The position numbers and the translations under genes are program-made. This document shows positions 6,755 to 20,378 of a DNA stretch of 64,000 nt, piece after piece (positions within the stretch are counted from its first letter, which is position 1; each line of letters opens with the position of its first letter). The stretch is from Alkalispirochaeta americana (GTDB taxonomy: Bacteria > Spirochaetota > Spirochaetia > DSM-27196 > Alkalispirochaetaceae): NCBI RefSeq assembly GCF_900156105.1, contig NZ_FTMS01000017.1, positions 1 through 64,000 of the forward strand. The letters are read 5' to 3'. The notes beneath the pieces were generated by a model. It searched no databases and had not been told where the DNA came from. It saw nothing but the letters and a program-made list of their open reading frames with translations.

Positions 6755-7306
6755 ATGCATCAAGAGACCGCCTCCATCTCGTTAGATCCTGTTCAACAAC
6801 AACGGCTTCAGACCATCGTGGAATCGCACCGAGAGGAGAAGGGGGCGCTTATTCCCGTTCTTCAAGACGCCCAGGGGGCGTTCGGTTTTCTCTCCCGAGA
6901 GGTTCTGCAGGAGGTATCCCGCCTGTTGCACATTCCTTTCAGCGTGGTCTCGGGAGTTGTAACTTTCTATTCCTATTTCAGCACGACCCCCAAGGGGAAG
7001 AACACCCTCCGGGTCTGTCTGGGCACGGCCTGTTATGTCCGGAACGGCAAGCAGGTGCTGGCAGATCTCCAGAAGGAGCTCTCCCTTGCCGTGGGAGAAA
7101 CCACGGAAGATCGCTGTTTCACCCTGGAAATCGGGCGCTGCTTTGGAGCCTGCGGCCTGGCCCCGGTGGTTATGGTGAACGACGACGTCCATCAGCGGGT
7201 AAAGGCTGCACGGATCCGGGAGATGCTTGCTCCCTATCGCGAAGAGTTTCAAAACGAGACAGAGCAGAAAGAAGCCGAGCATGAAAAGGAGGGGGCCCAT
7301 GAGTGA
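6755..7306 (+). CDS. hydC: NuoE/HydC-like [2Fe-2S] subunit of hydrogenase
   Basis: 183 aa. Residues 1-80 form the helical NuoE N-terminal part. The thioredoxin-like [2Fe-2S] domain follows with its four Cys in CLGTACYVRNG and GRCFGACG. In bifurcating hydrogenases HydC passes electrons between the flavoprotein and the hydrogenase subunit. The last ~20 residues are unusually Glu/Lys-rich. Its stop overlaps the start of the next gene (ATGAGTGA at 7299-7306), indicating coupled translation. The gene is the first of a three-subunit operon. Confidence 0.92.
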   Translation: MHQETASISLDPVQQQRLQTIVESHREEKGALIPVLQDAQGAFGFLSREVLQEVSRLLHIPFSVVSGVVTFYSYFSTTPKGKNTLRVCLGTACYVRNGKQVLADLQKELSLAVGETTEDRCFTLEIGRCFGACGLAPVVMVNDDVHQRVKAARIREMLAPYREEFQNETEQKEAEHEKEGAHE

Positions 7307-10300
7307 TAATCAACGCTCTGTTTCTGTCTGCGGCGGAGGTGGCTGCGTCGCTTCGGGATCCCTCAAGCTGATCGAACTGCTCCAGGAGGAAATAAGCCGG
7401 GAAGGGATAGACTGCCTGGTCACCCTTTCGGGATGCATGGGGCCCTGCGCCCGGGGACCAATTATCAAAATCCAGCCCGATGGAGTCCTCTACCAGGACG
7501 TATGCGCCGAGGACGTTCCCGAGATAGTCTCGTCACACCTGAAAGAAGGGAATATCCTGGAGCGGCTCTGTCACAGGCGCCCCGATACGGGAACGCCCGT
7601 ACCACGGGAAGCCGATATCGATTTTTTCCGCCACCAGAAGAAGATCGTTCTGGCCCAGTGCGGAACGGTCGATCCCCTGAGCCTTGAGTCCTACCAGAAA
7701 TCCGGGGGATACCAGGCCCTGCAGCAGGCCCTGGGAGAACTCAGCCCCGACAGGATCATCGGCATCCTTCAGGAAGCGGGCCTCCGCGGACGCGGGGGAG
7801 CGGGCTTTCCCACCTGGAAAAAATGGCGTTTCACCCGGGATGTTCCAGGTGAGCAGAGGTTTGTCGTTTGCAATGCCGACGAAGGGGACCCGGGAGCTTT
7901 CATGGACAGAAGTATCCTCGAAGGAAACCCCCACGGCCTGATCGAGGGAATGGCGATCGCCGCCTATGTGGTGGGAGCCTCCAAAGGGTACATCTATGTC
8001 CGCGCCGAATACCCCGTCGCCGTGGAACGGCTCTCCCGGGCAATCAATTCGGCCCGGGAAGCCGGCATCCTGGGAGACTCCATGATGGAGAGCGGTATCT
8101 CCTTCGATCTGGAGATCCGCATGGGATCGGGGGCCTTTGTTTGCGGCGAGGAGACCGCCCTTATGGCCTCCATCGAGGGCCAGCGGGGAGAGCCCCGGCC
8201 CCGGCCGCCTTTCCCGGCAGAGTCGGGTCTCTGGCAGGCCCCCACCCTGCTGAATAACGTTGAAACCTACGCCAACGTTCCGCCCATTATCACCAACGGA
8301 GCGGCCTGGTTCGCCAATACGGGAACTGAGAAGAGTCCCGGGACAAAGGTCTTTGCCCTGGCCGGAGCGGTGGTCAACACCGGCCTTGTGGAGGTTCCCA
8401 TGGGAACCACCCTGGGCGAAATCATCTACGATATCGGCGGGGGAATCACGGGAGGGAAATCCTTCAAGGCAGCCCAGATCGGGGGGCCCTCGGGAGGATG
8501 CATCCCCCGGGAGCACCTGAGCGTTCCTCTGGATTACGAATCGGTGAGCAAACTGGGAGCGATCATGGGATCCGGCGGGTTGATTGTTATGGACGACGAT
8601 GCCTGCATGGTGGACGTAGCCCGGTTTTTTCTGGAGTTTGTCCAGGAAGAATCCTGCGGAAAATGCGTGCCCTGCCGGGTAGGGACCAAGCGGATGCTGG
8701 AGATCCTGAACCGCATCTGTGAGGGCCACGGCATGGAGGGGGATATCGAACGCCTGGAGTTCCTGGGAAATCAGATCAAGGAAACATCCCTCTGCGGGCT
8801 GGGACAAAGCGCTCCCAATCCTGTACTGTCCACGATCCGCTACTTCCGGGAGGAATACGAACAGCATATCCACCAGCGCCATTGCGAGGCGGGAGTCTGC
8901 CCCTCTCTGGTGAGGGCTCCCTGCCAGAGCGCGTGCCCCGCTGGCGTGGACGTACCGGGCTTTGTCTCCCTGGTAGGAGAAGAGCGTTACGCCGAAGCCT
9001 TGCGGCTTCACCGGGAACGGAACCCCTTCGCGGCGGTCTGCGCCCGGGTCTGTTTCCACACCTGCGAGGAGAAGTGCCGCCGAGCCGCCCTGGACTCACC
9101 GGTGGCAATCCGAAGCATCAAACGCTTCATGGTGGATCAGGAGGTCACCCTTCAGCACCCCCGGGTGATCGAAAACAAGGAGAACGAGGAACGGAAGATT
9201 GCGATTATCGGAGGAGGTCCTGCGGGGCTCTCCTGCGGATATTTCCTGGCTCGCCTGGGATATCGACCGGTGGTCTTTGAAGCGGAGCAACGACCAGGGG
9301 GAATGCTGGTCCAGACAATTCCTGCCTACCGTCTCCCCCGGGAGACTCTGGCCCGGGAGATTCGCATGATAGAACAGCTGGGTGTAACCATAGAAACCCA
9401 GAAGGCTCTGGGCAGGGATTTCACCCTTGACGGTCTGCGCCAGGAGGGATACGAAGCCCTCTTCCTCGCCCTGGGAGCTCCCGAGGGGATGAGTCTGGGG
9501 ATTCCCGGGGAGGACGCCCCGGGTGTGGTGGAGGCCAACGCCTTCCTGAGGGAGTACAATATTCGCGGGTCGGTTCCGGTGGGCAAAAACGTCGTTGTTG
9601 TGGGCGGAGGAAACGCCGCGGTCGACGCAGCCCGAACAGCCCTTCGTCTGGGCGCAGAGACGGTCACCATCGTCTACCGGCGAAGCCAGGAGCAGATGCC
9701 AGCCTATGCCGAGGAGATCAGCGAGGCCCTTCACGAGGGGGTCCGGCTCCGTTGTCTGGCGCAACCCGTGAGCCTCTCTACCGGAAAGGACGGAACGCTT
9801 GAGGCCCTCCGATGCTCACCCATGGCCTTGGGAGCCTTTGATCGAAGCGGCCGGCGGCGTCCCACATCGTCGGGCAATGAACCGTTCACACTGAAGACAG
9901 ACCAGGTGATCGTTGCGATCGGCCAGAAGCTGAACGCCCGACCCCTTCTGGGCGACCTGGAGGTGGAGCTCACCGATCAGGGATTCCTGAAAGCCGATCC
10001 TTCCACGGGTCAGACCTCGGTTCCCTGGCTCTTCGCCGGGGGCGATGCAGCGAGCGGCCCTGCCTCGGTGGTCTGGGCTATCGCCGCGGGAGAGCGGGCA
10101 GCCCGGGGAATGGATATGCTCTTCACCGGCGAGGATCACGCCTTCTGGCGGGAAGAACACTCGCCCGATACCGCCTTCGATCCCGATGCGGACCCCGTGG
10201 AATTCCCCCGGGAAGCGGTAGCGACAATTCCTGTGGAACGGCGACGGGGAAGTTTTGACGAGGTAGAACTGCCCTGGAACGAACTGGTGGCGCTCCGCCA

Positions 10301-10367
10301 GTGCCAGCGATGCCTGCGGTGTGACTACGGGAAAGTAACGGTTCAGCAGGAGACTCACTATGCCTAA
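7299..10367 (+). CDS. NuoF/HydB flavoprotein fused to GltD/NfnB-like NAD(P)H module
   Basis: 1022 aa from ATG 7299 (SD AAAAGGAGG at 7284-7292). Residues 1-60: thioredoxin-like [2Fe-2S] domain (Cys11, 16, 46, 50). Residues about 110-525: NuoF core with FMN/NADH motifs (GRGGAGFPTW at 164-173) and [4Fe-4S] ligands Cys453, 456, 459 and 499. At residue 529 (HCEAGVC) the alignment with the second HydB of this window ends: the two-cluster ferredoxin tail is replaced by a GltD/NfnB-like module. That module has Cys542 and Cys546 onward, an FAD fold (GGGPAG at 638-643), an NAD(P)H fold (GGGNAAVD at 769-776, then VYRR) and a terminal CQRCLRC. Two nucleotide-binding flavin centres in one chain suggest coupling of NADH and NADPH to H2 chemistry. 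The combined function is inferred. Confidence 0.88.
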   Translation: MSDNQRSVSVCGGGGCVASGSLKLIELLQEEISREGIDCLVTLSGCMGPCARGPIIKIQPDGVLYQDVCAEDVPEIVSSHLKEGNILERLCHRRPDTGTPVPREADIDFFRHQKKIVLAQCGTVDPLSLESYQKSGGYQALQQALGELSPDRIIGILQEAGLRGRGGAGFPTWKKWRFTRDVPGEQRFVVCNADEGDPGAFMDRSILEGNPHGLIEGMAIAAYVVGASKGYIYVRAEYPVAVERLSRAINSAREAGILGDSMMESGISFDLEIRMGSGAFVCGEETALMASIEGQRGEPRPRPPFPAESGLWQAPTLLNNVETYANVPPIITNGAAWFANTGTEKSPGTKVFALAGAVVNTGLVEVPMGTTLGEIIYDIGGGITGGKSFKAAQIGGPSGGCIPREHLSVPLDYESVSKLGAIMGSGGLIVMDDDACMVDVARFFLEFVQEESCGKCVPCRVGTKRMLEILNRICEGHGMEGDIERLEFLGNQIKETSLCGLGQSAPNPVLSTIRYFREEYEQHIHQRHCEAGVCPSLVRAPCQSACPAGVDVPGFVSLVGEERYAEALRLHRERNPFAAVCARVCFHTCEEKCRRAALDSPVAIRSIKRFMVDQEVTLQHPRVIENKENEERKIAIIGGGPAGLSCGYFLARLGYRPVVFEAEQRPGGMLVQTIPAYRLPRETLAREIRMIEQLGVTIETQKALGRDFTLDGLRQEGYEALFLALGAPEGMSLGIPGEDAPGVVEANAFLREYNIRGSVPVGKNVVVVGGGNAAVDAARTALRLGAETVTIVYRRSQEQMPAYAEEISEALHEGVRLRCLAQPVSLSTGKDGTLEALRCSPMALGAFDRSGRRRPTSSGNEPFTLKTDQVIVAIGQKLNARPLLGDLEVELTDQGFLKADPSTGQTSVPWLFAGGDAASGPASVVWAIAAGERAARGMDMLFTGEDHAFWREEHSPDTAFDPDADPVEFPREAVATIPVERRRGSFDEVELPWNELVALRQCQRCLRCDYGKVTVQQETHYA

Positions 10368-12135
10368 GATCACAATCAACGCCAAGACTCTGGAGGTTCC
10401 TGCGGGAACAACGGTCCTGGAGGCATCCCTCGAAGCGGGCTACCAGATACCGACCCTGTGCCACGTGGCGGGTCGGCCAGCCCTGGGGGCGTGCCGGGTC
10501 TGCGTGGTGGAGATCGGGGGATACCCCCGGCTCCAGGCAGCCTGCTCCACTCCCATAGCAGAAGGAATGGAGATCAAAACCAACTCGCCCCAGGTCCGCG
10601 AGGCCCGGCGAACGGTGATGGAACTGCTCTTGAGCGAACACCAGGGTCTGTGTACCATTTGCGATCGTGATGAGGACTGCGAGTTGCGAAAAATCGCAGG
10701 GACCCTGGGAATTCAGGGCACACCCTATGAGGGAGCCCAGGCTCTGTTGAGCCTGGATGAATCGACGGCAGCCCTCTACCGGAACACCGGGAAGTGCATC
10801 AAGTGCCGCCGGTGTGTATCGGTATGCCACGAGGTACAAGGCGTGGGAGCACTCTTTCCCCAGGGCCGGGGCTTCGATACCCTGATCGGCCCGGCCTTTT
10901 CCAGCCCTCTGGCCGAAGTAGTTTGCGTGCAGTGCGGACAATGCGCGGCCGTCTGCCCTGTGGGAGCCATAGGGGAACGGCAACAGGTTGATGCGGTCTG
11001 GAGCGCTCTCTCGGATACCTCCAAACACGTGGTGGTCCAGACCGCCCCGGCTATCCGGGCGGCTCTGGGCGAGTGCTTTGGCTACCCTCCGGGAACGGTG
11101 GTCACAGGAAAGATGGTAGCCGCCTTGCGGCGGCTCGGCTTTGACGCGATCTTCGATACCAACTTCACCGCCGACCTTACCATCATGGAGGAAGGGTCAG
11201 AACTCCTCTCGCGGCTCAAAACGGTCCTGGTCGATCACGGAGAGGCGGCCCTCCCCCTCTTCACCAGTTGCTCCCCCGGCTGGATCAACTTTGCCGAGAC
11301 CTTCTTCCCTCAAATGCTGCCACACATCTCCTCCTGCAAATCGCCCCAGCAGATGTTCGGCGCTCTGGCAAAAACCTACTACGCCGAAAAGATCGGTGTG
11401 GACCCCAAAGACATGGTGGTGGTCTCGGTGATGCCCTGCACGGCAAAGAAGGCCGAGGCGGAACGGCCCGAGATGAGGGCTTCGGGGTACCAGGATGTCG
11501 ACCACGTTCTGACAACGCGAGAACTTGCCCTCATGATCAAAACAATCGGTCTTGATTTCAGGGGACTTCCCGATGAGTCCATGGACACCCCCTTTGGCAT
11601 ATCCACCGGCGCTGCCGATATCTTTGCCAACTCCGGGGGTGTCATGGAAGCAGCCCTGCGGGCAGCCTACGAACTCGTCACCGGGCGATCACTCCCGGGA
11701 GACAATCTCCATGTAACCCAGGTGGCGGGACTGACCGGGGTGAAAGAAGCTTCACTGGTTCTCTCGGACCTCCTCCCCGACTGGAGTTTCCTTGAAGGAG
11801 TTCAACTCAACGTGGCCGTCGCCCACGGACTGGGAAACGCCAGAAACCTGGTGGAAGGCATCATGAGGGGTGAACGGCGGTATCATTTTGTGGAGATCAT
11901 GACCTGCCCCGGTGGCTGTATCGGAGGCGGCGGACAGCCCCGAATGACCACCGACGATGTTCGCCTGGCCCGTATGGAGGCGATCTTTCGGGAAGACGAG
12001 GGGAAAGAACACCGAAAGTCCCACGAGAACCCCTACGTCCAGGCCCTCTACAAGGAGTTTCTGGGGGAACCCCTGGGGCACAAATCCCATCAGTTGCTCC
12101 ATACCAGTTATGGAGTTTCGACTCTGCGGGTTTGA
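10360..12135 (+). CDS. hydA: [FeFe]-hydrogenase catalytic subunit with TSCSPGW motif
   Basis: 591 aa, overlapping the previous gene by 8 nt. Cofactor sites in order: [2Fe-2S] (Cys34, 45, 48, 62), His-ligated [4Fe-4S] (His94, Cys98, 101, 107), two ferredoxin-type [4Fe-4S] clusters (Cys146-156 and Cys189-199), then the H-cluster domain. H-cluster motifs are TSCSPGW (302-308), MPCTAKKAE (358-366) and TCPGGCIGGGGQP (Cys516, Cys520). The H-cluster ligands are intact, but residue 305 is Ser (codon 11272-11274) where active enzymes carry the proton-relay Cys of TSCCP. The partner subunits are the NuoE- and NuoF-GltD-like proteins. Maturases HydEFG are not in the window. Activity or catalytic bias may be altered. 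Confidence 0.93.
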   Translation: MPKITINAKTLEVPAGTTVLEASLEAGYQIPTLCHVAGRPALGACRVCVVEIGGYPRLQAACSTPIAEGMEIKTNSPQVREARRTVMELLLSEHQGLCTICDRDEDCELRKIAGTLGIQGTPYEGAQALLSLDESTAALYRNTGKCIKCRRCVSVCHEVQGVGALFPQGRGFDTLIGPAFSSPLAEVVCVQCGQCAAVCPVGAIGERQQVDAVWSALSDTSKHVVVQTAPAIRAALGECFGYPPGTVVTGKMVAALRRLGFDAIFDTNFTADLTIMEEGSELLSRLKTVLVDHGEAALPLFTSCSPGWINFAETFFPQMLPHISSCKSPQQMFGALAKTYYAEKIGVDPKDMVVVSVMPCTAKKAEAERPEMRASGYQDVDHVLTTRELALMIKTIGLDFRGLPDESMDTPFGISTGAADIFANSGGVMEAALRAAYELVTGRSLPGDNLHVTQVAGLTGVKEASLVLSDLLPDWSFLEGVQLNVAVAHGLGNARNLVEGIMRGERRYHFVEIMTCPGGCIGGGGQPRMTTDDVRLARMEAIFREDEGKEHRKSHENPYVQALYKEFLGEPLGHKSHQLLHTSYGVSTLRV

Positions 12136-12165: not shown

Positions 12166-13113
12166 ATGAAAAATTTCATTACATATCTACTGGCGGCGGC
12201 CCTCGTGGCCGCCGCACCGCTTCTTCTCTCGGCTGACTCTGCCCGAGGGACAGAACAGACTGTGCGAATAGGCTCCCTGAGAGGCCCCACCTCGGTGGGC
12301 ATGGCCCCGCTTCTCCACGATCCGCACCGACTGGCACCGTATCTTGATCCTGATTTCAGGCTCTTTGGCACCCCCGATCTGCTCATCTCCCAGATTCTGG
12401 CAGGAGAGATCGATATCGCTGCGCTGCCCACCAATCTGGCTGCCAATCTTCATAACCGGGGAGCAGGAATACGGCTTCTGGCCATAAGCGGTGGCGGCGT
12501 GCTCTACGTGGTGGCAGACCGGGATATGGCCTGGGAAGATCTGCGGGGAGAAACCATCTTCACTCTGGCCCGGGGAGCCACACCGGATATTCTGTTCCAG
12601 GCGATGCTGCGCCACCAGGGGCTGGAACCGGGGAGAGACGTGCACCTGCGCTACGCTCCTGACCAGACCGAGCTGGCCCAACGGCTCATAGGCGGAAACA
12701 TTTCCAGGGCGGTTCTGCCGGAGCCCTTTGTCACACGCGTGACCACAGCCCGGCCCGAACTGCGCGTAGCTCTGGAGCTTGGCTCACACCACCCCATGAC
12801 CGCCCTGGTGGTGACAGACCGCTTCGCCACGGACCATCCCCGGGCACTGGCCCATTTTGAGAGCGCCTACCAGGAAGGGCTCCGGTGGCTCGACCAGAAC
12901 AGAGCCGAGGGAGCTGCCGCTGCGGCTGATCAACTACAGATTCCCGCACCGGTGATCGTCTCTGCCTTTGACCGCCTGAACCTGGTCTATACTCCTGCAG
13001 AGGAGGCCCGCGAGGCGGTGCTGGATTTTCTGGGGATCTTTCTTGATCATGCACCGGCCTCGGTGGGAGGAGTTCTGCCGGGAGAAGAGTTCTTCCACCG
13101 GGCCAGGAATTAG
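12166..13113 (+). CDS. ABC transporter substrate-binding protein (SsuA/NMT1-like)
   Basis: 315 aa with a signal peptide (hydrophobic residues about 5-24). The mature part resembles the SsuA/TauA/ThiY type: an RIGSLRGPTSVGMAPLL start, AGEIDIAALPTNLAANL, and a VVADRDMAWEDLRG hinge region. It starts 30 nt after hydA and could be cotranscribed with it. No permease or ATPase is adjacent. The only candidate partner is the fused permease-ATPase at 18651-20378, which belongs to the same SsuBC class. The substrate cannot be read from sequence; sulfonate, nitrate-like and thiamine-precursor ligands are all known in the family. Confidence 0.8.
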   Translation: MKNFITYLLAAALVAAAPLLLSADSARGTEQTVRIGSLRGPTSVGMAPLLHDPHRLAPYLDPDFRLFGTPDLLISQILAGEIDIAALPTNLAANLHNRGAGIRLLAISGGGVLYVVADRDMAWEDLRGETIFTLARGATPDILFQAMLRHQGLEPGRDVHLRYAPDQTELAQRLIGGNISRAVLPEPFVTRVTTARPELRVALELGSHHPMTALVVTDRFATDHPRALAHFESAYQEGLRWLDQNRAEGAAAAADQLQIPAPVIVSAFDRLNLVYTPAEEAREAVLDFLGIFLDHAPASVGGVLPGEEFFHRARN

Positions 13114-13186: not shown

Positions 13187-13215
13187 TTGCTCTGGCTGAT
13201 TTCCTCGTATATAAT
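13187..13215 (+). promoter_or_regulatory. promoter of the MotA-FliG chimera gene
   Basis: TTGCTC (13187-13192), 17-bp spacer, TATAAT (13210-13215). The -10 is perfect and the -35 moderate. This looks like a sigma-70 rather than a sigma-28 promoter, so the gene may not follow late flagellar timing. Confidence 0.55.
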
Positions 13216-13287
13216 GGAAGACGTGGCATGCTGTTTTGGGGATGATCCGGTTCGGGTCTGTTTCATCGTCTCGGGAAGGGGTCTGGT

Positions 13288-13959
13288 ATGACAAAGCGGC
13301 TCGAGCAGCTGATTGATTTTTATGTTTCCTTGTCGGAGATAGCCCGCAAGGAGGGGCTTCTCGCTCTTGAGGATCAGGTTGCCTCGTGTCCAACCAACCT
13401 CAGCCGGGTGGGTATCCAGCTGATAGCCGATGGCGTACCGGGCAGCCAGCTGGAACTCATTCTGGACAACTGCATCGCCGACGACCTGAAGCACCGGAAT
13501 GTGCAGCTCTGGGACAATCCCGCTGTGACTGTGCCGGTAAAGATCGAAAAGACGGCGCTGATGGGCATTTACAGCGGGGAGAACCCGCGGTTCCTGCGGC
13601 GGATGTTGCTGAGCCATCTGGGTGCCTGCGCTGTGCTTCAGGATTTCGGGATCGACTGCGTGAACGTGGAGCGGGAACGGTTTCTTGAGTTGCTCCACCT
13701 GAAGGACCTGTCAATACAACGAGTACTTCGTGAGTTCGACACCCGGGTTCTGGCAGAGGCTTTGAGCCACGCCGGCGATGACCTTCGGGATGCGGTAATG
13801 CGGAATCTCAGTAAAAATGCAGCAACCATGTTGCAGGAGGAGCTTGAGGGTATCTCCTGCAGTGAAGAGTGCTGTGCCCAGGCCCAGATCCGGATAGGGG
13901 AAATCATTGGGGACTTTCTGGAAAGCGGGGAACTTATCTCCGACCTTGATATGACATGA
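13288..13959 (+). CDS. soluble MotA-FliG chimera
   Basis: 223 aa, ATG with AAGGGG 7 nt upstream. Residues 15-70 match the cytoplasmic loop of the stator protein MotA between TM2 and TM3 (ARKEGLLALE, IQLIADG). Residues 85-111 match the MotA segment after TM4 (LMGIYSGENPRFLRRML). The TM3-TM4 pair is replaced by about 14 polar residues, and no TM helix remains. Residues about 132-220 match the FliG C-terminal torque domain (SIQRVLREFDTRVLAEAL, MRNLSKNAATMLQEELE). By eye, MotA Arg90/Glu98 equivalents are kept (Arg20, Glu28). FliG Lys264, Arg281 and Arg297 become Ser160, Asn177 and Glu193, while the acidic pair 288/289 is kept as Glu184/Glu185. A flagellar-motor accessory role is inferred. It is not a full FliG: the N and middle domains are absent. 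Confidence 0.78.
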   Translation: MTKRLEQLIDFYVSLSEIARKEGLLALEDQVASCPTNLSRVGIQLIADGVPGSQLELILDNCIADDLKHRNVQLWDNPAVTVPVKIEKTALMGIYSGENPRFLRRMLLSHLGACAVLQDFGIDCVNVERERFLELLHLKDLSIQRVLREFDTRVLAEALSHAGDDLRDAVMRNLSKNAATMLQEELEGISCSEECCAQAQIRIGEIIGDFLESGELISDLDMT

Positions 13960-14071: not shown

Positions 14072-15826
14072 CTACTTTTTGTAGAGAGGCCTCGGTGTAT
14101 AGTGCGTGTGGAGCAGCTCGTGGGCTTTCTTGCCGTTGGGCGCTCCCAGGAAGTCGTCGTAGACTTTCTTGATAAAGGGGTTATGGTGAGAGCAGCGGAA
14201 CTCGCTCTTCTCGTCATCCTTATAGATTCCGGCGATACGCTGTTCCCGGGTCTCGTCGCTGCTGGTCGCGTAGGGCTGACCACCACCGGAGATACATCCC
14301 CCGCGGCAGGCCATCACCTCGATGAAGTGGAAGGGCGGCTCCTGTCCCGCTGCCTTGGCTTCCCGCAACTGGTTCATCAGATCCCGAACGTTGGCGATTC
14401 CGTGGGCAATCGCCACCCGCAGAGTGGTGTCTCCCACCTGAACCTCAGCCGAACGAACTCCATCCATTCCCCGGACGTCCTCGAAGGTGATTCCCGCATG
14501 CTCGTTCCCGGTCACCAGATAGTGAGCGGTCCGCAGGGCTGCCTCCATGACGCCTCCCGTGGCACCAAAGATCGTACCCGCACCAGTGTAGGCACCGATC
14601 GGAGCATCGGCATCTTCGTCGGAAAGACTGTGGAAATCGATCCCGCTGGACTTGATCATCCGCGCCAGCTCCCGCGTGGTAAGAGAGACATCCACATCCT
14701 GCTCGCCCGAGGCAAACATGTTCACGTCGCGGCTGCACTCAAACTTCTTGGCGGTACAGGGCATGATCGCCGCAGAGAAGATCTCTTTCGAGGAAAGGCC
14801 CTTGCTCTCGGCATAGTAGGTCTTGGTCAGAACACCCTGCATCATCATGGGAGACTTGGCAGTGGAGAAGTGGGGGATCATGTCATCGTAGTACTTCTCC
14901 ATGTAATCAACCCAGCTGGGGCAGCAGGAGGTGATCAGGGGGATCTCGCCGTTTCCTTTGGTCAGGCGCTCCACCAGCTCGGTCCCCTCCTCCATGATGG
15001 TGAGGTCGGCGGCGAAGTTGGTGTCGAAGACGGCATCCACGCCCAGGCGCCGAAGCGCTGCGTAGATCTTGCCCGTGGTGATCTCCCCGGCAGGAAGATC
15101 GAAGGCCTCGCCCAGAGCAACACGCACAGCCGGAGCGATCTGGACCGCTACATGCTTGTCAGGATCGCGAATCGCCTCGAGGAGGCGCTTTGTCTCGTCC
15201 TTCTCGTAGATCGCTCCCACCGGACAGTGGGCGGAACACTGACCGCACTTGATGCAGGGACTCTCGTTGAGCAGGGCTCCACCAGAAGGCATCATGCGGG
15301 TCTCGTCACCGCGGTTCAGGAACTCCAGGGCCCAGACATCCTGCATCTGCTGACAGACCAGGACGCAGCGGCCACAACTGATACACTTGCGGGGATCCAG
15401 AACCAGCGACGGCGTGGATTCGTCCCGGGCGATCTCGGGGATCCGTGAATCGAAGGGGATCTCCCGGATGCCAAAGTTTGCCGCCATCGTCTGGAGCTCA
15501 CAGGTGCCGCTTCTGCCGCAGGTGAGACACTCGTTGGGATGGTTGGCAAGCATCATCTCCACGGTGGTGCGCCGCACCTCGTTGAGTTCCGGATCGTGGG
15601 TTATGTACTTTGCCCCATCCACAACCTCGGTGGCACAGGCCCGGGGAAGCTTGGGCGAACCCTCGACCTTTACAATACACAGACCACAGGCAGCCCAGGG
15701 CTCCAAATCGGGGTGGACACAGAGCGCGGGAATCTTCACTCCCACTTTTTTTGCCGCGTCAAGGATACGCGTACCCTTCGGGACCTCGACTGCAGTGCCG
15801 TTTATTTCTACTTTCACTGTACTCAC
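14072..15826 (-). CDS. hydA: [FeFe]-hydrogenase catalytic subunit HydA (canonical)
   Basis: 584 aa. N-terminal [2Fe-2S] (Cys36, 47, 50, 64), His-ligated [4Fe-4S] (His96, Cys100, 103, 109), two ferredoxin-type clusters (Cys148-158, Cys191-201), then the H-cluster domain with canonical TSCCPSW (Cys301; proton-relay Cys302), MPCTAKK (Cys357) and MACRGGCISGGGQP. It reduces protons or oxidises H2 using electrons from the HydBC partners encoded upstream. Subunit set and gene order match the trimeric NAD-linked, ferredoxin-dependent bifurcating type. It lacks the extra C-terminal [2Fe-2S] domain of the longer Thermotoga HydA. The intrinsic terminator follows. Confidence 0.95.
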   Translation of the reverse strand: MSTVKVEINGTAVEVPKGTRILDAAKKVGVKIPALCVHPDLEPWAACGLCIVKVEGSPKLPRACATEVVDGAKYITHDPELNEVRRTTVEMMLANHPNECLTCGRSGTCELQTMAANFGIREIPFDSRIPEIARDESTPSLVLDPRKCISCGRCVLVCQQMQDVWALEFLNRGDETRMMPSGGALLNESPCIKCGQCSAHCPVGAIYEKDETKRLLEAIRDPDKHVAVQIAPAVRVALGEAFDLPAGEITTGKIYAALRRLGVDAVFDTNFAADLTIMEEGTELVERLTKGNGEIPLITSCCPSWVDYMEKYYDDMIPHFSTAKSPMMMQGVLTKTYYAESKGLSSKEIFSAAIMPCTAKKFECSRDVNMFASGEQDVDVSLTTRELARMIKSSGIDFHSLSDEDADAPIGAYTGAGTIFGATGGVMEAALRTAHYLVTGNEHAGITFEDVRGMDGVRSAEVQVGDTTLRVAIAHGIANVRDLMNQLREAKAAGQEPPFHFIEVMACRGGCISGGGQPYATSSDETREQRIAGIYKDDEKSEFRCSHHNPFIKKVYDDFLGAPNGKKAHELLHTHYTPRPLYKK

Positions 15827-15847
15827 AACTGTCTCCTCTTCACCCAG

Positions 15848-17644
15848 TTATGCGATTATCACGGCGCCGAACTTGCACACTTCGTAGCACTGACCGCACT
15901 TGACACAATTCTCCTGATCGATAACGTGAACCGCTTTCCGTTCACCAGCGATACAGTTGACGGGACACTTCCGCGCACAGACCGTACAGCCAATGCACTT
16001 CTCGGCGTCGATATCGTACCGCACCAGGTCCTTACAGACCCCGGAAGGACAGCGCTTGTCGTTAATATGCGCAAGATACTCGTCGCGGAAGTACTTCAGT
16101 GTTGACACCACCGGGTTGGCCGCTGTCTGGCCAAGTCCGCAGAGGGATGCCTTCTGCATGGATACAGCGATCGCCTGGAGGCGGTCGATATCTTCCATCT
16201 CTCCCTTGCCGCTGGTAATCTTCTCCAGAATATCGAACATCTTTCGACCACCAATCCGGCAGGGTGCGCACTTTCCGCAGGACTCCTCCACGGAGAACTC
16301 CAGGTAGAACTTGGTCACATCGATGATACAGTCGTCTTCGTCCATGACGATCATACCGCCGGATCCCATCATGGAACCCAGAGCGGTGAGGTTATCGAAG
16401 TCGATCTCCGTGTCCAGATGCTCGGCTGTGATCACACCGCCCGAGGGGCCACCCGTCTGAACCGCCTTGAAGGCCTTTCCGCCGGGGATTCCGCCACCGA
16501 TGTCGTAGATTATCTCCCGCAGGGTTGTTCCCATGGGAACCTCGATGAGGCCGGAGTTGTTGATTTTCCCGGTCAGGGCAAACACTTTCGTTCCCGGCGA
16601 TGACTTCGTGCCGATCCGTGAGAACCACTCCCCGCCGCGAAGGATAATCATGGGGATGTTCGCCCAGGTCTCCACGTTGTTGATAACCGTGGGTTTTCCC
16701 CAGAGACCTTTCACCGCCGGAAAGGGCGGACGAGGCCGGGGCGTTCCCCGCTCTCCCTCGATGGAGGCAAGAAGCGCTGTCTCCTCACCACAGACAAAGG
16801 CGCCGGCACCAAGACGGATCTCGATGTCGAAATCGAAGTCGCTACCCAGGATGTTTTTTCCCAGAAGGCCGTATTCGCGGGCCTGGGCCATGGCGTGCTG
16901 GAGCCTCTTGATCGCCAGAGGATACTCGGCACGAATATAGACATACCCCACATTTGCGCCACAGGTGTATCCGGCGATCATCATCGCCTCCATGACCGAG
17001 TGCGGGTCTCCCTCGATGGTGGAGCGATCCATGTAGGCGCCGGGGTCTCCCTCGTCGGCGTTACAGACCACAAAGACCTCATCGGCCTCGTGCTTGATCG
17101 ATTTGGTGAAGTTCCACTTCATCCAGGTGGGAAACCCTGCGCCACCACGACCGCGAAGACCGGACTTCTTGAGTTCGGCGATCACGTCGTCATCGCTCAT
17201 CTCGAAGAGAACCTTCTCCAGGGCAGCGTAACCCTCACGGGCGATGTACTCGGTAATATCCTCGGGGTTGATAACACCACAGTTGCGCAACACGATCCGC
17301 ATCTGCTTCTGGTAAAAGGTGATATCGTCTTCGGTCTCCAGGTGCCGCTTCCGCTCGGAATCTTTCAGCATGAGCCGGGAAACACTTCGTCCCTTGATGA
17401 TGTGCTCATCGATAATATCGGCAGCATCTTCAGCCTTTACGTCGACGGAGAAAGACTCATCGGGAAGAATCTTGACGATAGGGCCCTTTTCGCAAAATCC
17501 GAAACAGCCGGTTTTGATGATTTGCACGTCATCCTGAACACCCCGCTCCTCGGCGATACGCTGCAGGCTGTGGAATATCTGATCGGACTTACTCGACTCA
17601 CAAGCGGTTCCACCGCAGACAAGACAATAGCTGGAATAGGCCAT
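15848..17644 (-). CDS. hydB: NuoF/HydB flavoprotein subunit of bifurcating hydrogenase
   Basis: 598 aa. N-terminal [2Fe-2S] thioredoxin-like domain (CLVCGGTACESS, KTGCFGFC), the NuoF core with the FMN motif GLRGRGGAGFPTW and [4Fe-4S] ligands ESCGKCAPC plus SLCGLG, and a C-terminal ferredoxin domain with two [4Fe-4S] motifs (CIGCTVCARKCP, CVKCGQCYEVC). This is the standard HydB layout: it binds FMN and NAD(H) and is where electron bifurcation is thought to occur. It is the direct comparator for the fused protein at 7299-10367, which shares everything up to the CP/E-GVC junction. Confidence 0.95.
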   Translation of the reverse strand: MAYSSYCLVCGGTACESSKSDQIFHSLQRIAEERGVQDDVQIIKTGCFGFCEKGPIVKILPDESFSVDVKAEDAADIIDEHIIKGRSVSRLMLKDSERKRHLETEDDITFYQKQMRIVLRNCGVINPEDITEYIAREGYAALEKVLFEMSDDDVIAELKKSGLRGRGGAGFPTWMKWNFTKSIKHEADEVFVVCNADEGDPGAYMDRSTIEGDPHSVMEAMMIAGYTCGANVGYVYIRAEYPLAIKRLQHAMAQAREYGLLGKNILGSDFDFDIEIRLGAGAFVCGEETALLASIEGERGTPRPRPPFPAVKGLWGKPTVINNVETWANIPMIILRGGEWFSRIGTKSSPGTKVFALTGKINNSGLIEVPMGTTLREIIYDIGGGIPGGKAFKAVQTGGPSGGVITAEHLDTEIDFDNLTALGSMMGSGGMIVMDEDDCIIDVTKFYLEFSVEESCGKCAPCRIGGRKMFDILEKITSGKGEMEDIDRLQAIAVSMQKASLCGLGQTAANPVVSTLKYFRDEYLAHINDKRCPSGVCKDLVRYDIDAEKCIGCTVCARKCPVNCIAGERKAVHVIDQENCVKCGQCYEVCKFGAVIIA

Positions 17645-17649
17645 CGATA

Positions 17650-18042
17650 TTACTCCTTTATCATATCCGGGGCCGGTCTGTCGAAGACGTGCTTGTTAAC
17701 CAGCTCCTTCTTCACAATATGCTTCTCAACGATCTCCTCCGCCACCTCGGCGGTCACGGAACCGTAGATGGTATCGGGCATACCCTGCATGTGCACTTCC
17801 ACAGTGGGTTCAGCGTGATCAAGGCCCAGGGAACCGGTCTGGCGAATGACAACATTCTTCAGGTCATGGTGCTCCAGGGCGTTCACAAAGGCCTGAAGGG
17901 TGTGCTTGGCACCGGCGGCAATTCCGCTTGTCCCCATTCCAACAATAACCTCAACGGTTTTTTCATCCACCTTGCGGCGATTGATCTCTTTTCTCTTGGA
18001 GTCTCGAAGATTCCGGAGCTCCTCAAGTGTCATCTTTGCCAT
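17650..18042 (-). CDS. cysteine-free HydD-like thioredoxin-fold protein
   Basis: 130 aa from ATG 18040-18042 (SD AGGGAGA), 4 nt after the NuoE-like gene. The sequence follows the small (2Fe-2S) ferredoxin-like protein commonly encoded in NAD-linked hydrogenase operons (VGMGTSGIAAGAKHTLQAF, RQTGSLGLDHAEPTVEV). At the usual cluster ligands GTCG and TGCxGLC it has GTSG and TGSLGLD. The whole protein contains no cysteine, so it cannot bind the usual cluster. A structural or assembly role within the complex is inferred. The fold, length and operon position are otherwise intact. Confidence 0.8.
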   Translation of the reverse strand: MAKMTLEELRNLRDSKRKEINRRKVDEKTVEVIVGMGTSGIAAGAKHTLQAFVNALEHHDLKNVVIRQTGSLGLDHAEPTVEVHMQGMPDTIYGSVTAEVAEEIVEKHIVKKELVNKHVFDRPAPDMIKE

Positions 18043-18046
18043 TCTC

Positions 18047-18556
18047 TCACTCTCCCTTTTCGTCACCGTCGCGGTATTCGGCGACCACTGCGGGAAGCCC
18101 GTCGGTTCCGAGCTTTCCGTACACCTCATCGCCTACCATCACAACCGGAGCCAACCCGCAGCAACCTACGCAGCGAACCGATTCCAGCGTGAAAAGCCCG
18201 TCGTCGCTGGTTTCATTTACCTTGATATCCAGAAGGTTACCGAACTCCTCGATCAGGTCTCCCGCTCCCTTGAGATAGCAGGCAGTTCCCATACATACGG
18301 CAACTTTGTTTTTCCCCGGCTTCTCCAGCTTGAAATAGTGGTAGAAAGTTGCCACGCCATAGATCTTGGCGAGGGGGGTGTCGATCATTTCACTCAGCTG
18401 TCGCATTGCCTCCCAGGGCAGAAAAGTGAGCTCCTGCTGAATGCGATGCAGGATCATGATCAGGTTTCCCCGTTTGTCCTTCCACTGCTCGATAAATGCA
18501 ACGAGCTCGTCCGAAAACGATACCTTCTGAACTTCAACTGTCTCTTGTGTGCCCAC
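18047..18556 (-). CDS. hydC: NuoE/HydC-like [2Fe-2S] subunit
   Basis: About 169 aa from GTG 18554-18556, preceded by a GGGGGGAG tract. The open frame runs up to an ATG at 18632-18634, but that codon lies upstream of the predicted transcription start, so the GTG is preferred. Contains the NuoE helical region and the [2Fe-2S] ligands CMGTACYLKG and VRCVGCCG. It is the first gene of the hydC-hydD-like-hydB-hydA operon and works with HydB and HydA in NAD- and ferredoxin-linked hydrogen metabolism. Confidence 0.9.
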   Translation of the reverse strand: MGTQETVEVQKVSFSDELVAFIEQWKDKRGNLIMILHRIQQELTFLPWEAMRQLSEMIDTPLAKIYGVATFYHYFKLEKPGKNKVAVCMGTACYLKGAGDLIEEFGNLLDIKVNETSDDGLFTLESVRCVGCCGLAPVVMVGDEVYGKLGTDGLPAVVAEYRDGDEKGE

Positions 18557-18601
18557 GGCTCCCCCCAATTGGTGAGATTGATTTCTGTTATGTGTCAAGG
18601 A

Positions 18602-18630
18602 ATAATACCATTCATTTATTGTTACATCAA
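18602..18630 (-). promoter_or_regulatory. sigma-70 promoter of the second hydrogenase operon
   Basis: On the minus strand TTGATG (18625-18630), 17-bp spacer, TATTAT (18602-18607), in the most AT-rich stretch of this area. Predicted transcript start is near 18594. It is placed between the ABC gene stop (18651) and hydC, so the hydrogenase operon need not depend on readthrough. Confidence 0.7.
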
Positions 18631-18650
18631 GCACAATAACTTGTTTTATT

Positions 18651-20378
18651 TCACGTATCTTCGAGAAGAGAGTCTATCTGTTGTACCACTTTTTCTCTTT
18701 CATCGGAAGAGATATCCTTTATAAGGAAGTCGCCGATTATTTTTGTCGGATGCTGATCGGCTAAAATAATGACCCTGTCGGCCAGGGCGAGAGCCTCCTG
18801 ACGACTGTGGGTAACCATGACCAGGGCAGGCCCGATGGTGGTTCGCAGTTCCCGGATCAGGGAGCGCAACTCCCCTCTGGTGGCGGCATCCTGGTTAGCC
18901 AGCGGCTCGTCCAGGCAGATAACGGAAGCGCTCCGAAGAAAGGCCCGGATAAGATTTACCCGCTGCTTCATCCCCCCGCTGAGCGCTCCCGGATAATCCC
19001 CGGGCCGGGGAAGACGAAGGGTTTCCAGGAACGCCGCGAGTTGCCGCCGCAGTTCTCTGCCTTCGCTCCGGGTGCCACGGCGCGGAAGCACCAGCAACAG
19101 GTTATCCAGGACAGACCGCCAGGGAAGAAGCCGGGGCTCCTGAAAGACAAACCCCACCCGGGGGAACTCTTCCTGACCAACCCGCGGGAAAATGAAGCGT
19201 CTTATCCACCTGCCCCGAGAGGAGCTTCCCGAGGCATCTTTGATGTCACCACGGTGATTGCTCCTGCAGCTGCGGGTGATACTGCCCCCGGAAGCCAAAA
19301 GATCGCCGGCAAGGAGCCTCAGGAGCGTTGTTTTCCCGGCCCCTGACCGCCCGAGAATCGCTGTGGCACTTCCCGGCTCGATCTCAAGGTTGAAGTTCTC
19401 GAAGAGAGGAACCCCCGGGAAAGAGAAGGAAACCGACCGAAGAACTATTCCGGCCGAGGGCCTCCCCCCCCGGGGTCCGGAAGACGGAAAAAGAAGCGGA
19501 AATTCTTCTTCCAGCCCGCTTCCGGGGCTGCGGCCTGTCTGAACAGGACTTGCCGGAAGCGGCTCCCCTCCCGGCTGGTCCAGGCCAACCCTCCGGGCCA
19601 GCCTCTTGTCAGGCTCGTGTCCCTGACGATGCTCCGGGACCTCGCACCAGGCCAGGAGATGCCGATCGAGCACACCCAGCGCTCCATCCACCAGGGTTGC
19701 CATGAGGACAGCAATAAATGTCCAGGCGATCACCGAGGGCGTCTCCAGGTAGAGTTTTGCCACGTGCATGGACGTTCCCACAGCAAGCCGTGGTTGACTC
19801 AGAACTTCGGCGGCAATCACCGCTTTCCAGCTCATCCCTGCGGCGCTGGTTGCCGCCGAGAGGACCACCGGAGCAGCGCCGGGAATATGGATATGCCAGA
19901 TTCTTCCCGGGAGGGAGACCCGGAAAAGCCGCCCCATATCCAGAAGATCCCGATCAACAGAGCGGAGTCCATCCAGCACCCCCTGATAGAGCAACGGCAA
20001 GGAAACCAGAAGGGAAACAAAAACAGGAACTCCATCCAGAGGAAGCCAGATCAGAGCCAGGAGAATCACCGAAACAACCGGCACCGACCTGACCGTTACC
20101 AGGGCGGGCCGCAGAAAACGCGCCAGATTCGGCCGCCCCACGGCCAGGGACGCCAGAACGACAGCCCCCACCAGAGAGAGGAACCACCCCAGAACCCAGC
20201 GAGCCAGCGAAGCCGCCAGGGTGGGGCCGAACGAGGGATCAGCAAGAATCTTCCGGAGAGCATGAAACACAACGGGCGGCGAGGGAAGCAAAATCTCCCG
20301 AGCCACCAGAGCCGACCCGGCCCACCAAAGGGCGATCAGCGCGCCTGCCCCGGCGTAGCCTGCCCGGGATCGAATCAC
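18651..20378 (-). CDS. fused ABC permease-ATPase (SsuC-SsuB type)
   Basis: 575 aa. Residues 1-250 form an inner-membrane permease of the SsuC/TauC class with about six TM helices and the EAA-like loop around AAGMSWKAVIAAEVLSQP. Residues about 310-575 form an ATPase: Walker A GRSGAGKTT, Q-loop FQEPRLLPW, signature LSGGMKQR, Walker B VICLDEP, H-loop THSRQEA. About 30 extra basic/Ser-rich residues sit between Walker A and the Q-loop, and a 60-residue linker joins the halves. These domains are normally separate polypeptides. The gene overlaps the BCCT gene by 4 nt. The likely binding protein is at 12166-13113. Substrate unknown. Confidence 0.88.
   Translation of the reverse strand: MIRSRAGYAGAGALIALWWAGSALVAREILLPSPPVVFHALRKILADPSFGPTLAASLARWVLGWFLSLVGAVVLASLAVGRPNLARFLRPALVTVRSVPVVSVILLALIWLPLDGVPVFVSLLVSLPLLYQGVLDGLRSVDRDLLDMGRLFRVSLPGRIWHIHIPGAAPVVLSAATSAAGMSWKAVIAAEVLSQPRLAVGTSMHVAKLYLETPSVIAWTFIAVLMATLVDGALGVLDRHLLAWCEVPEHRQGHEPDKRLARRVGLDQPGGEPLPASPVQTGRSPGSGLEEEFPLLFPSSGPRGGRPSAGIVLRSVSFSFPGVPLFENFNLEIEPGSATAILGRSGAGKTTLLRLLAGDLLASGGSITRSCRSNHRGDIKDASGSSSRGRWIRRFIFPRVGQEEFPRVGFVFQEPRLLPWRSVLDNLLLVLPRRGTRSEGRELRRQLAAFLETLRLPRPGDYPGALSGGMKQRVNLIRAFLRSASVICLDEPLANQDAATRGELRSLIRELRTTIGPALVMVTHSRQEALALADRVIILADQHPTKIIGDFLIKDISSDEREKVVQQIDSLLEDT

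Follow-up and report, generated by a model that had tools for sequence, protein, structure and literature searches.

The contact between stator and rotor is the torque-making step of the flagellar motor, and the known contact between the cytoplasmic head of MotA and the C-terminal domain of FliG (FliG_C) is the torque interface, where K264, R281 and R297 of FliG are the reported partners of MotA E98. MotI is a soluble PilZ-domain brake that binds MotA and/or FliG and alters motor output. The YcgR brake (PMC10140304) is likewise soluble, binds MotA and/or FliG and alters motor output, and the EpsE clutch of Bacillus subtilis (PMC3000366) is a rotor-FliG disengager. The stator-rotor structure 8UCS was solved with a construct made for that purpose, in which MotA(1-262) of Clostridium sporogenes was joined through a linker to FliG(239-333) (PMC11302681). 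In that structure FliG_C is docked between two neighbouring MotA heads, and the pincer grip that these exert on it is required (PMC11302681). In Leptospira, LIC10244 is a hypothetical cytoplasmic protein that was 6.6-fold higher in the wild type than in a perRA/perRB double mutant, both in host-mimicking chambers (PMC8638967); we found no description of its function or domains in the open-access literature.

We analyzed a window of 64,000 nucleotides, the whole stretch of DNA considered here, from Alkalispirochaeta americana. Sequence profiles and a structure model showed that one gene in it encodes what is predicted to be a soluble two-domain protein, in which a MotA cytoplasmic head is followed by a short linker and FliG_C. 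The 8UCS construct has the same order of MotA head, post-TM4 segment, linker and FliG_C, and both domains match structurally, but the construct is man-made, retains all transmembrane helices and assembled as MotA5B2. EpsE would resemble the window protein if the latter is indeed a clutch, but is glycosyltransferase-like and without MotA or FliG sequence. YcgR and MotI differ in using a c-di-GMP-binding PilZ domain; a Pfam scan found no PilZ domain in the window protein. Ordinary MotA and FliG are the source families of the two halves, but the fusion has no membrane helices, FliG_N or FliG_M and hence no FliG-type ring building.

A gene between two hydrogenase gene sets

The open reading frame (Table 1) is a genuine gene: its codon usage is like that of neighbouring genes, at 0.247 nats per codon in frame, while the five other frames range from -0.43 to 0.14. 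A candidate promoter upstream was graded weak because its promoter-scan score fell below the threshold.

Two [FeFe]-hydrogenase gene sets flank the gene and face each other (6755-12135, forward strand; 14072-18634, reverse strand), each with a HydA-type large subunit. A 1046-aa protein at 7227-10367 (forward) joins a NuoF/HydB-like part (Complex1_51K, SLBB, NADH_4Fe-4S) to an NAD(P) oxidoreductase part resembling the glutamate synthase small subunit (Fer4_20, Pyr_redox_2). At 18651-20378 (reverse) a 575-aa open reading frame is an apparent fusion of ABC permease and ABC ATPase (BPD_transp_1 and ABC_tran), for which the substrate-binding protein at 12166-13113 is a possible partner. An ordinary flagellar operon, containing fliG and motA, is present in the genome as well. 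The contig from which the window was taken carries, outside the window, a second, divergent FliG gene (G000:C17:97342-98307).

Table 1. Positions of the gene, its upstream signals, domains and interface residues (window coordinates).
Feature	Position	Strand	Basis
Possible sigma-70 promoter, TTGCTC-17 nt-TATAAT	13187..13215	+	By inspection; under promoter-scan threshold
Probable ribosome-binding site, AAGGGG	13276..13281	+	6 nt before ATG, by inspection
Whole gene, soluble MotA-head/FliG_C fusion, 223 aa	13288..13959	+	ATG start
MotA TM2-TM3 cytoplasmic loop, residues 4-71	13297..13500	+	NCBIfam MotP E 1e-9; loop HMM 55.7 bits
Arg20, equivalent of E. coli MotA Arg90	13345..13347	+	Alignment
Glu28, equivalent of E. 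coli MotA Glu98	13369..13371	+	Alignment
Short linker replacing TM3-TM4, residues 72-85	13501..13542	+	Alignments; without hydrophobic stretch
MotA post-TM4 segment, contains IYSGENPRFLRRMLL, residues 86-111	13543..13620	+	HMM 12.1 bits; part of modelled MotA-like head
Low-confidence interdomain linker, residues 112-129	13621..13674	+	pLDDT about 60 at residues 111-130
FliG C-terminal (torque helix) domain, residues 130-217	13675..13938	+	Pfam FliG_C E 4.2e-15; fold Z 16.7
Glu184-Glu185, equivalents of FliG Asp288-Asp289	13837..13842	+	Alignment

Domain architecture

NCBIfam MotA/MotP models matched residues 3-65 (E 1e-9), and residues 5-71 of the loop are 44% identical to MotA of the same genome. 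A Pfam scan gave no MotA match for the N-terminal part; the Pfam model MotA_ExbB has its centre in the membrane part of MotA, which is missing here. Because circularity had to be avoided, we built two HMMs, for the TM2-TM3 loop and the post-TM4 segment, from 27 ordinary MotAs only. The loop HMM scored 55.7 bits at residues 4-64. The post-TM4 HMM scored 12.1 bits at residues 92-111, and none of 5000 shuffled sequences scored as high. This second match is weak in the window protein alone but strong in relatives, one of which (G262) scored 45.8 bits at residues 93-119; because relatives score so much higher, the segment is secure as a feature of the family. Pfam FliG_C matched residues 131-216 (E 4.2e-15), and the match to this part among PDB sequences was FliG (E 1e-12).

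The protein has the loop and post-TM4 helix of MotA and the torque-helix domain of FliG, and is neither a MotA stator protein nor a FliG: TM3-TM4 are missing from the MotA alignment, and with them the four-TM ion channel, while the FliG model TIGR00207 gave 45.6 bits (cut-off 226.7) over only positions 241-327 of 338, without FliG_N and FliG_M. We found no membrane span, the maximum 19-residue Kyte-Doolittle mean being 1.27 versus 2.16 in MotA of the same genome, which bears out the original prediction of a membrane-free protein. The same prediction had read the 223 residues as MotA TM2-TM3 loop, linker, post-TM4 segment and FliG_C; sequence profiles, the structure model and relatives all agree, and in the HMM search that it had proposed residues 1-115 scored to MotA only. 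A transmembrane-free MotA loop and post-TM4 helix joined to FliG_C on one chain is what places the protein in the family described below.

Structure model and interface residues

An AlphaFold2 model of the window protein, for which 53 sequences from the window and related loci served as input, had a pLDDT of 88. Residues 3-120 matched MotA (8ucs_C) with Z 16.3 over 118 residues at 2.6 A, as expected for the MotA cytoplasmic helices; the match covers chain residues 75-257 and so skips TM3-TM4. Residues 130-220 matched FliG (4fhr_B) with Z 16.7 over 91 residues at 1.1 A, whereas the best unrelated chain reached Z about 7.4. Foldseek also matched the FliG_C fold of the model to FliG in 8UCS (chain H). 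The model contains no confident docking of the MotA head on FliG_C, because its pTM is 0.57 and the linker (111-130) is of low confidence. A second model, of a relative with all canonical charges (G214), had a pLDDT of 88.5 and a pTM of 0.55, also without confident docking.

The alignment confirmed the claim that the stator charges (Arg20, Glu28) and the FliG acidic pair (Glu184, Glu185) are kept. Loss of the three basic FliG residues had been claimed as well: K264 is Ser and R281 is Asn, as predicted, but the change of R297 to Glu is ambiguous because of a one-residue alignment gap, the position aligning to Ser192 here and to Glu193 in the earlier reading. Across 14 fusions of this kind, MotA R90 and E98 (E. 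coli numbering) are kept in 13, as is the D288/D289 pair, and the basic residues vary (K264 in 5, R281 in 11, R297 in 4). Because of this variation, the loss in the window protein is a shared trend and not a peculiarity.

A sparse family in Spirochaetota

A survey of spirochaete genomes, one of the checks proposed at the outset, found 14 MotA-head/FliG_C proteins, which are spread over 13 genomes and eight families (f1, f29, f42, f50, f60, f63, f77 and f80); one weaker member (G414) lies outside this count. A search across the phylum yielded full-length relatives in three genomes of Leptospiraceae, 35-37% identical over residues 3-218, and the further hosts are G125, G262, G214, G236, G116 (two loci), G206, G530, G499 and G460. 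No relatives came from single-sequence scans of GTDB and viral contigs or from a second viral scan, and a plasmid search returned only an ordinary fliG. A profile scan of GTDB contigs returned the three Leptospiraceae fusions plus ordinary MotA-type matches. The Clostridiales matches of that scan looked TM-less, but the two loci that were read encode ordinary MotAs of 270-276 aa. Judged by sequence, these data show the window protein to be a member of a sparse, previously unrecognised Spirochaetota family of apparently soluble MotA-head/FliG_C proteins, the restriction to Spirochaetota resting mainly on GTDB contig pattern scans.

Within the family of the host, the window genome alone among eight has an intact copy, and within the genus one of seven; the six congeners have ordinary FliG and MotA and no intact copy. 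A sister genome (G006, a draft assembly, for which this reading holds) carries at the same place a remnant that has lost its start codon and promoter region, lacks about 300 bp inside and the 3' part, and retains little of the reading frame. Because only this decayed remnant is present, the gene appears to be dispensable in the lineage of the nearest sister species. Such a distribution is what would be expected of a relic, a fusion product that has no regulated role and that drifts in a few genomes until it is lost. We regard this as quite improbable: the Leptospiraceae trio shows strong constraint (dN 0.09-0.13, dS near saturation), the architecture recurs in eight or more families, and the window copy has an intact reading frame and host-like codon usage.

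The distribution also bears on the idea that the fusion is an assembly or delivery adaptor, bridging incoming stator units and the C-ring and aiding docking or release without blocking torque. One domain per partner on a flexible linker would suit such a bridge as well as a plug. However, the family is sparse, the six congeners manage with ordinary FliG and MotA, and to our knowledge the stators of known motors dock without a dedicated MotA-head/FliG_C factor; we thus consider an adaptor unlikely.

Relation to LIC10244

The LIC10244 family (NCBIfam NF047717) resembles the fusions in length and solubility, and for several of them the profile match runs through the MotA head into FliG_C, being colinear with relatives in G206 (9-241 of 252 positions), G116 (8-205) and G262 (8-201). 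The window protein itself, in contrast, gave no match to the NF047717 model. The matching relatives scored 59 bits or less against a curated cut-off of 475 bits, and their FliG_C halves alone gave no NF047717 match, so that the same architecture in LIC10244 is probable and not proven. Sequence comparison suggests that this uncharacterised Leptospira family probably belongs to the soluble MotA-head/FliG_C family. A paper on L. interrogans describes a 'fliG paralog' whose annotation is FliG C-terminal domain-containing (PMC13066512); whether related to the family or not, it shares the name of this domain.

The original prediction had known of no described protein of this kind. The natural architecture is indeed unpublished as far as the open-access literature goes, where we found no account of any natural, soluble MotA-FliG fusion (subscription papers were mostly outside the scope of the search), but the LIC10244 family and the engineered 8UCS fusion qualify the claim. 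As a kind of protein, the natural soluble MotA-head/FliG_C fusion appears to be new, although an uncharacterised NCBIfam family probably overlaps with it; its likely function, motor control, is an already known kind of activity. A Zorya-type, MotA-like defence reading was rejected, as PADLOC gave no matches at E 0.01 for five family members.

Other domain arrangements and origin

The two domains were also found combined in other ways. In G058 the order is reversed, FliG_C preceding the MotA head in 217 aa. An 805-aa chain in G255 (L173:3272-5689) carries FliG_C, leucine-rich repeats and two MotA heads. In G350, G288 and G460 a solo MotA-head gene overlaps the start of the fusion gene, and the head of that fusion gene is degenerate in the first two. 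Three genes overlap in G125, one of them head-FliG_C(degenerate)-head, the FliG_C part being assigned by inspection, and in G316 a solo MotA-head gene lies near two FliG_C paralogue genes. Because they are repeatedly fused or adjacent in differing orders, the MotA head and FliG_C probably act together, and this is the strongest argument that the sequences offer.

In the MotA-head tree the soluble heads separated from membrane MotAs (2 changes versus 14.8 when shuffled), and in the FliG_C tree the window domain grouped with the Leptospiraceae fusions (99/77, long branches); both trees are poorly resolved. Origin by a simple deletion in the flagellar operon was rejected, since in that operon motA follows fliG, whereas the fusion has its MotA part first.

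Several other open reading frames were noted. The one adjoining the 805-aa gene (L173:1-2629) also seems, by eye, to start with a MotA-head-like segment. Proteins of about 243-254 aa ending in FliG_C occur in several spirochaete genomes (L175:1234-1998, L177:1105-1836, L179:1820-2557 and L055:1465-2220); they are too short for full FliG and are perhaps FliG paralogues without FliG_N. Two more, of 206 and 234 aa (L033:1426-2046 and L034:3369-4073), have a C-terminal FliG_C and an N-terminal half assigned to no domain, with similar neighbours in the two genomes.

A possible role at the stator-rotor contact

We tentatively favour, while stopping short of calling it probable, the reading that the fusion is a soluble mimic that binds the rotor and/or the stator and, in the manner of a clutch or governor, adjusts how they engage. 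All the roles listed in the original prediction, clutch, brake, decoy and assembly adaptor, would fit the findings. The fusion would work at the flagellar stator-rotor contact, where its MotA head could meet FliG_C of the C-ring in place of stator MotA, and its own FliG_C could enter the groove between neighbouring stator MotA heads. By competing with, bridging or capping the normal contact it would tune or disengage torque, and the clutch or governor would be switched by expression of the fusion itself. The active form would probably pair two MotA heads; this is expected because one FliG_C is gripped by two adjacent heads and a single head cannot form the pincer. Such pairing would explain the second MotA-head domains or overlapping solo MotA-head genes of several relatives.

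Several findings argue for this reading. Both folds match the partners of the solved 8UCS complex, the domains are combined in several ways with the R90/E98 and acidic pairs each kept in 13 of 14 fusions, and the Leptospiraceae trio is conserved (by the dN given above). The hosts have FliG: each of the 19 genomes tested has a full FliG (10 of them carry full fusions, 8 carry weaker members or other arrangements, and one is the sister G006), and in the three remaining fusion hosts there are open reading frames of FliG length with FliG_C. In addition, in the engineered MotA-linker-FliG_C protein of the same order, FliG_C docks between adjacent MotAs (PMC11302681). In G116 (both loci), G206 and G236 the fusion has methyl-accepting chemotaxis genes no more than about two genes away, which is suggestive only, because chemotaxis receptor genes are usually numerous in such genomes. 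The case for a motor contact is weakened because K264, R281 and R297 are lost in the window protein and variable in relatives, because AlphaFold docking was not confident in either model, because the loci that we read do not form flagellar operons, with the window gene between hydrogenase genes, and because the sister genome tolerates loss of the gene.

Some of these points would equally suit a scaffold or signalling module independent of the motor, in which the head/FliG_C pair has been put to a new use as a sensory or self-assembling unit, a soluble counterpart of the stator-rotor clamp by which something else is reported or switched. The leucine-rich-repeat shuffling in G255, the tandem duplicates in G125, the non-flagellar neighbourhoods, the lost torque charges and the regulation of LIC10244 by PerRA/PerRB in Leptospira (PMC8638967) are all consistent with it. 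We give it only a small chance, however, since FliG is retained in all hosts tested and the residues that are kept are those of the torque interface.

A broader form of the motor-control reading, which we find rather doubtful, holds that the stator-rotor clamp, in which two MotA heads grip one FliG_C, also exists in spirochaetes as a modular and soluble copy that makes up a regulatory system of its own. Its parts would be distributed in varying combinations over fusions, solo genes and leucine-rich-repeat proteins, and it would tune the motor by reproducing the torque interface away from the membrane.

If control at the motor contact is the true role, a natural soluble protein with both sides of the contact would represent a new means of controlling flagellar rotation. 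This role predicts pairing of two MotA heads around a single FliG_C, and the fusion, which has the same domain order as the one engineered by structural biologists, would be a ready-made reagent for studying the grip on FliG_C. The finding also offers a testable identity for an uncharacterised, host-adaptation-regulated family of Leptospira proteins.
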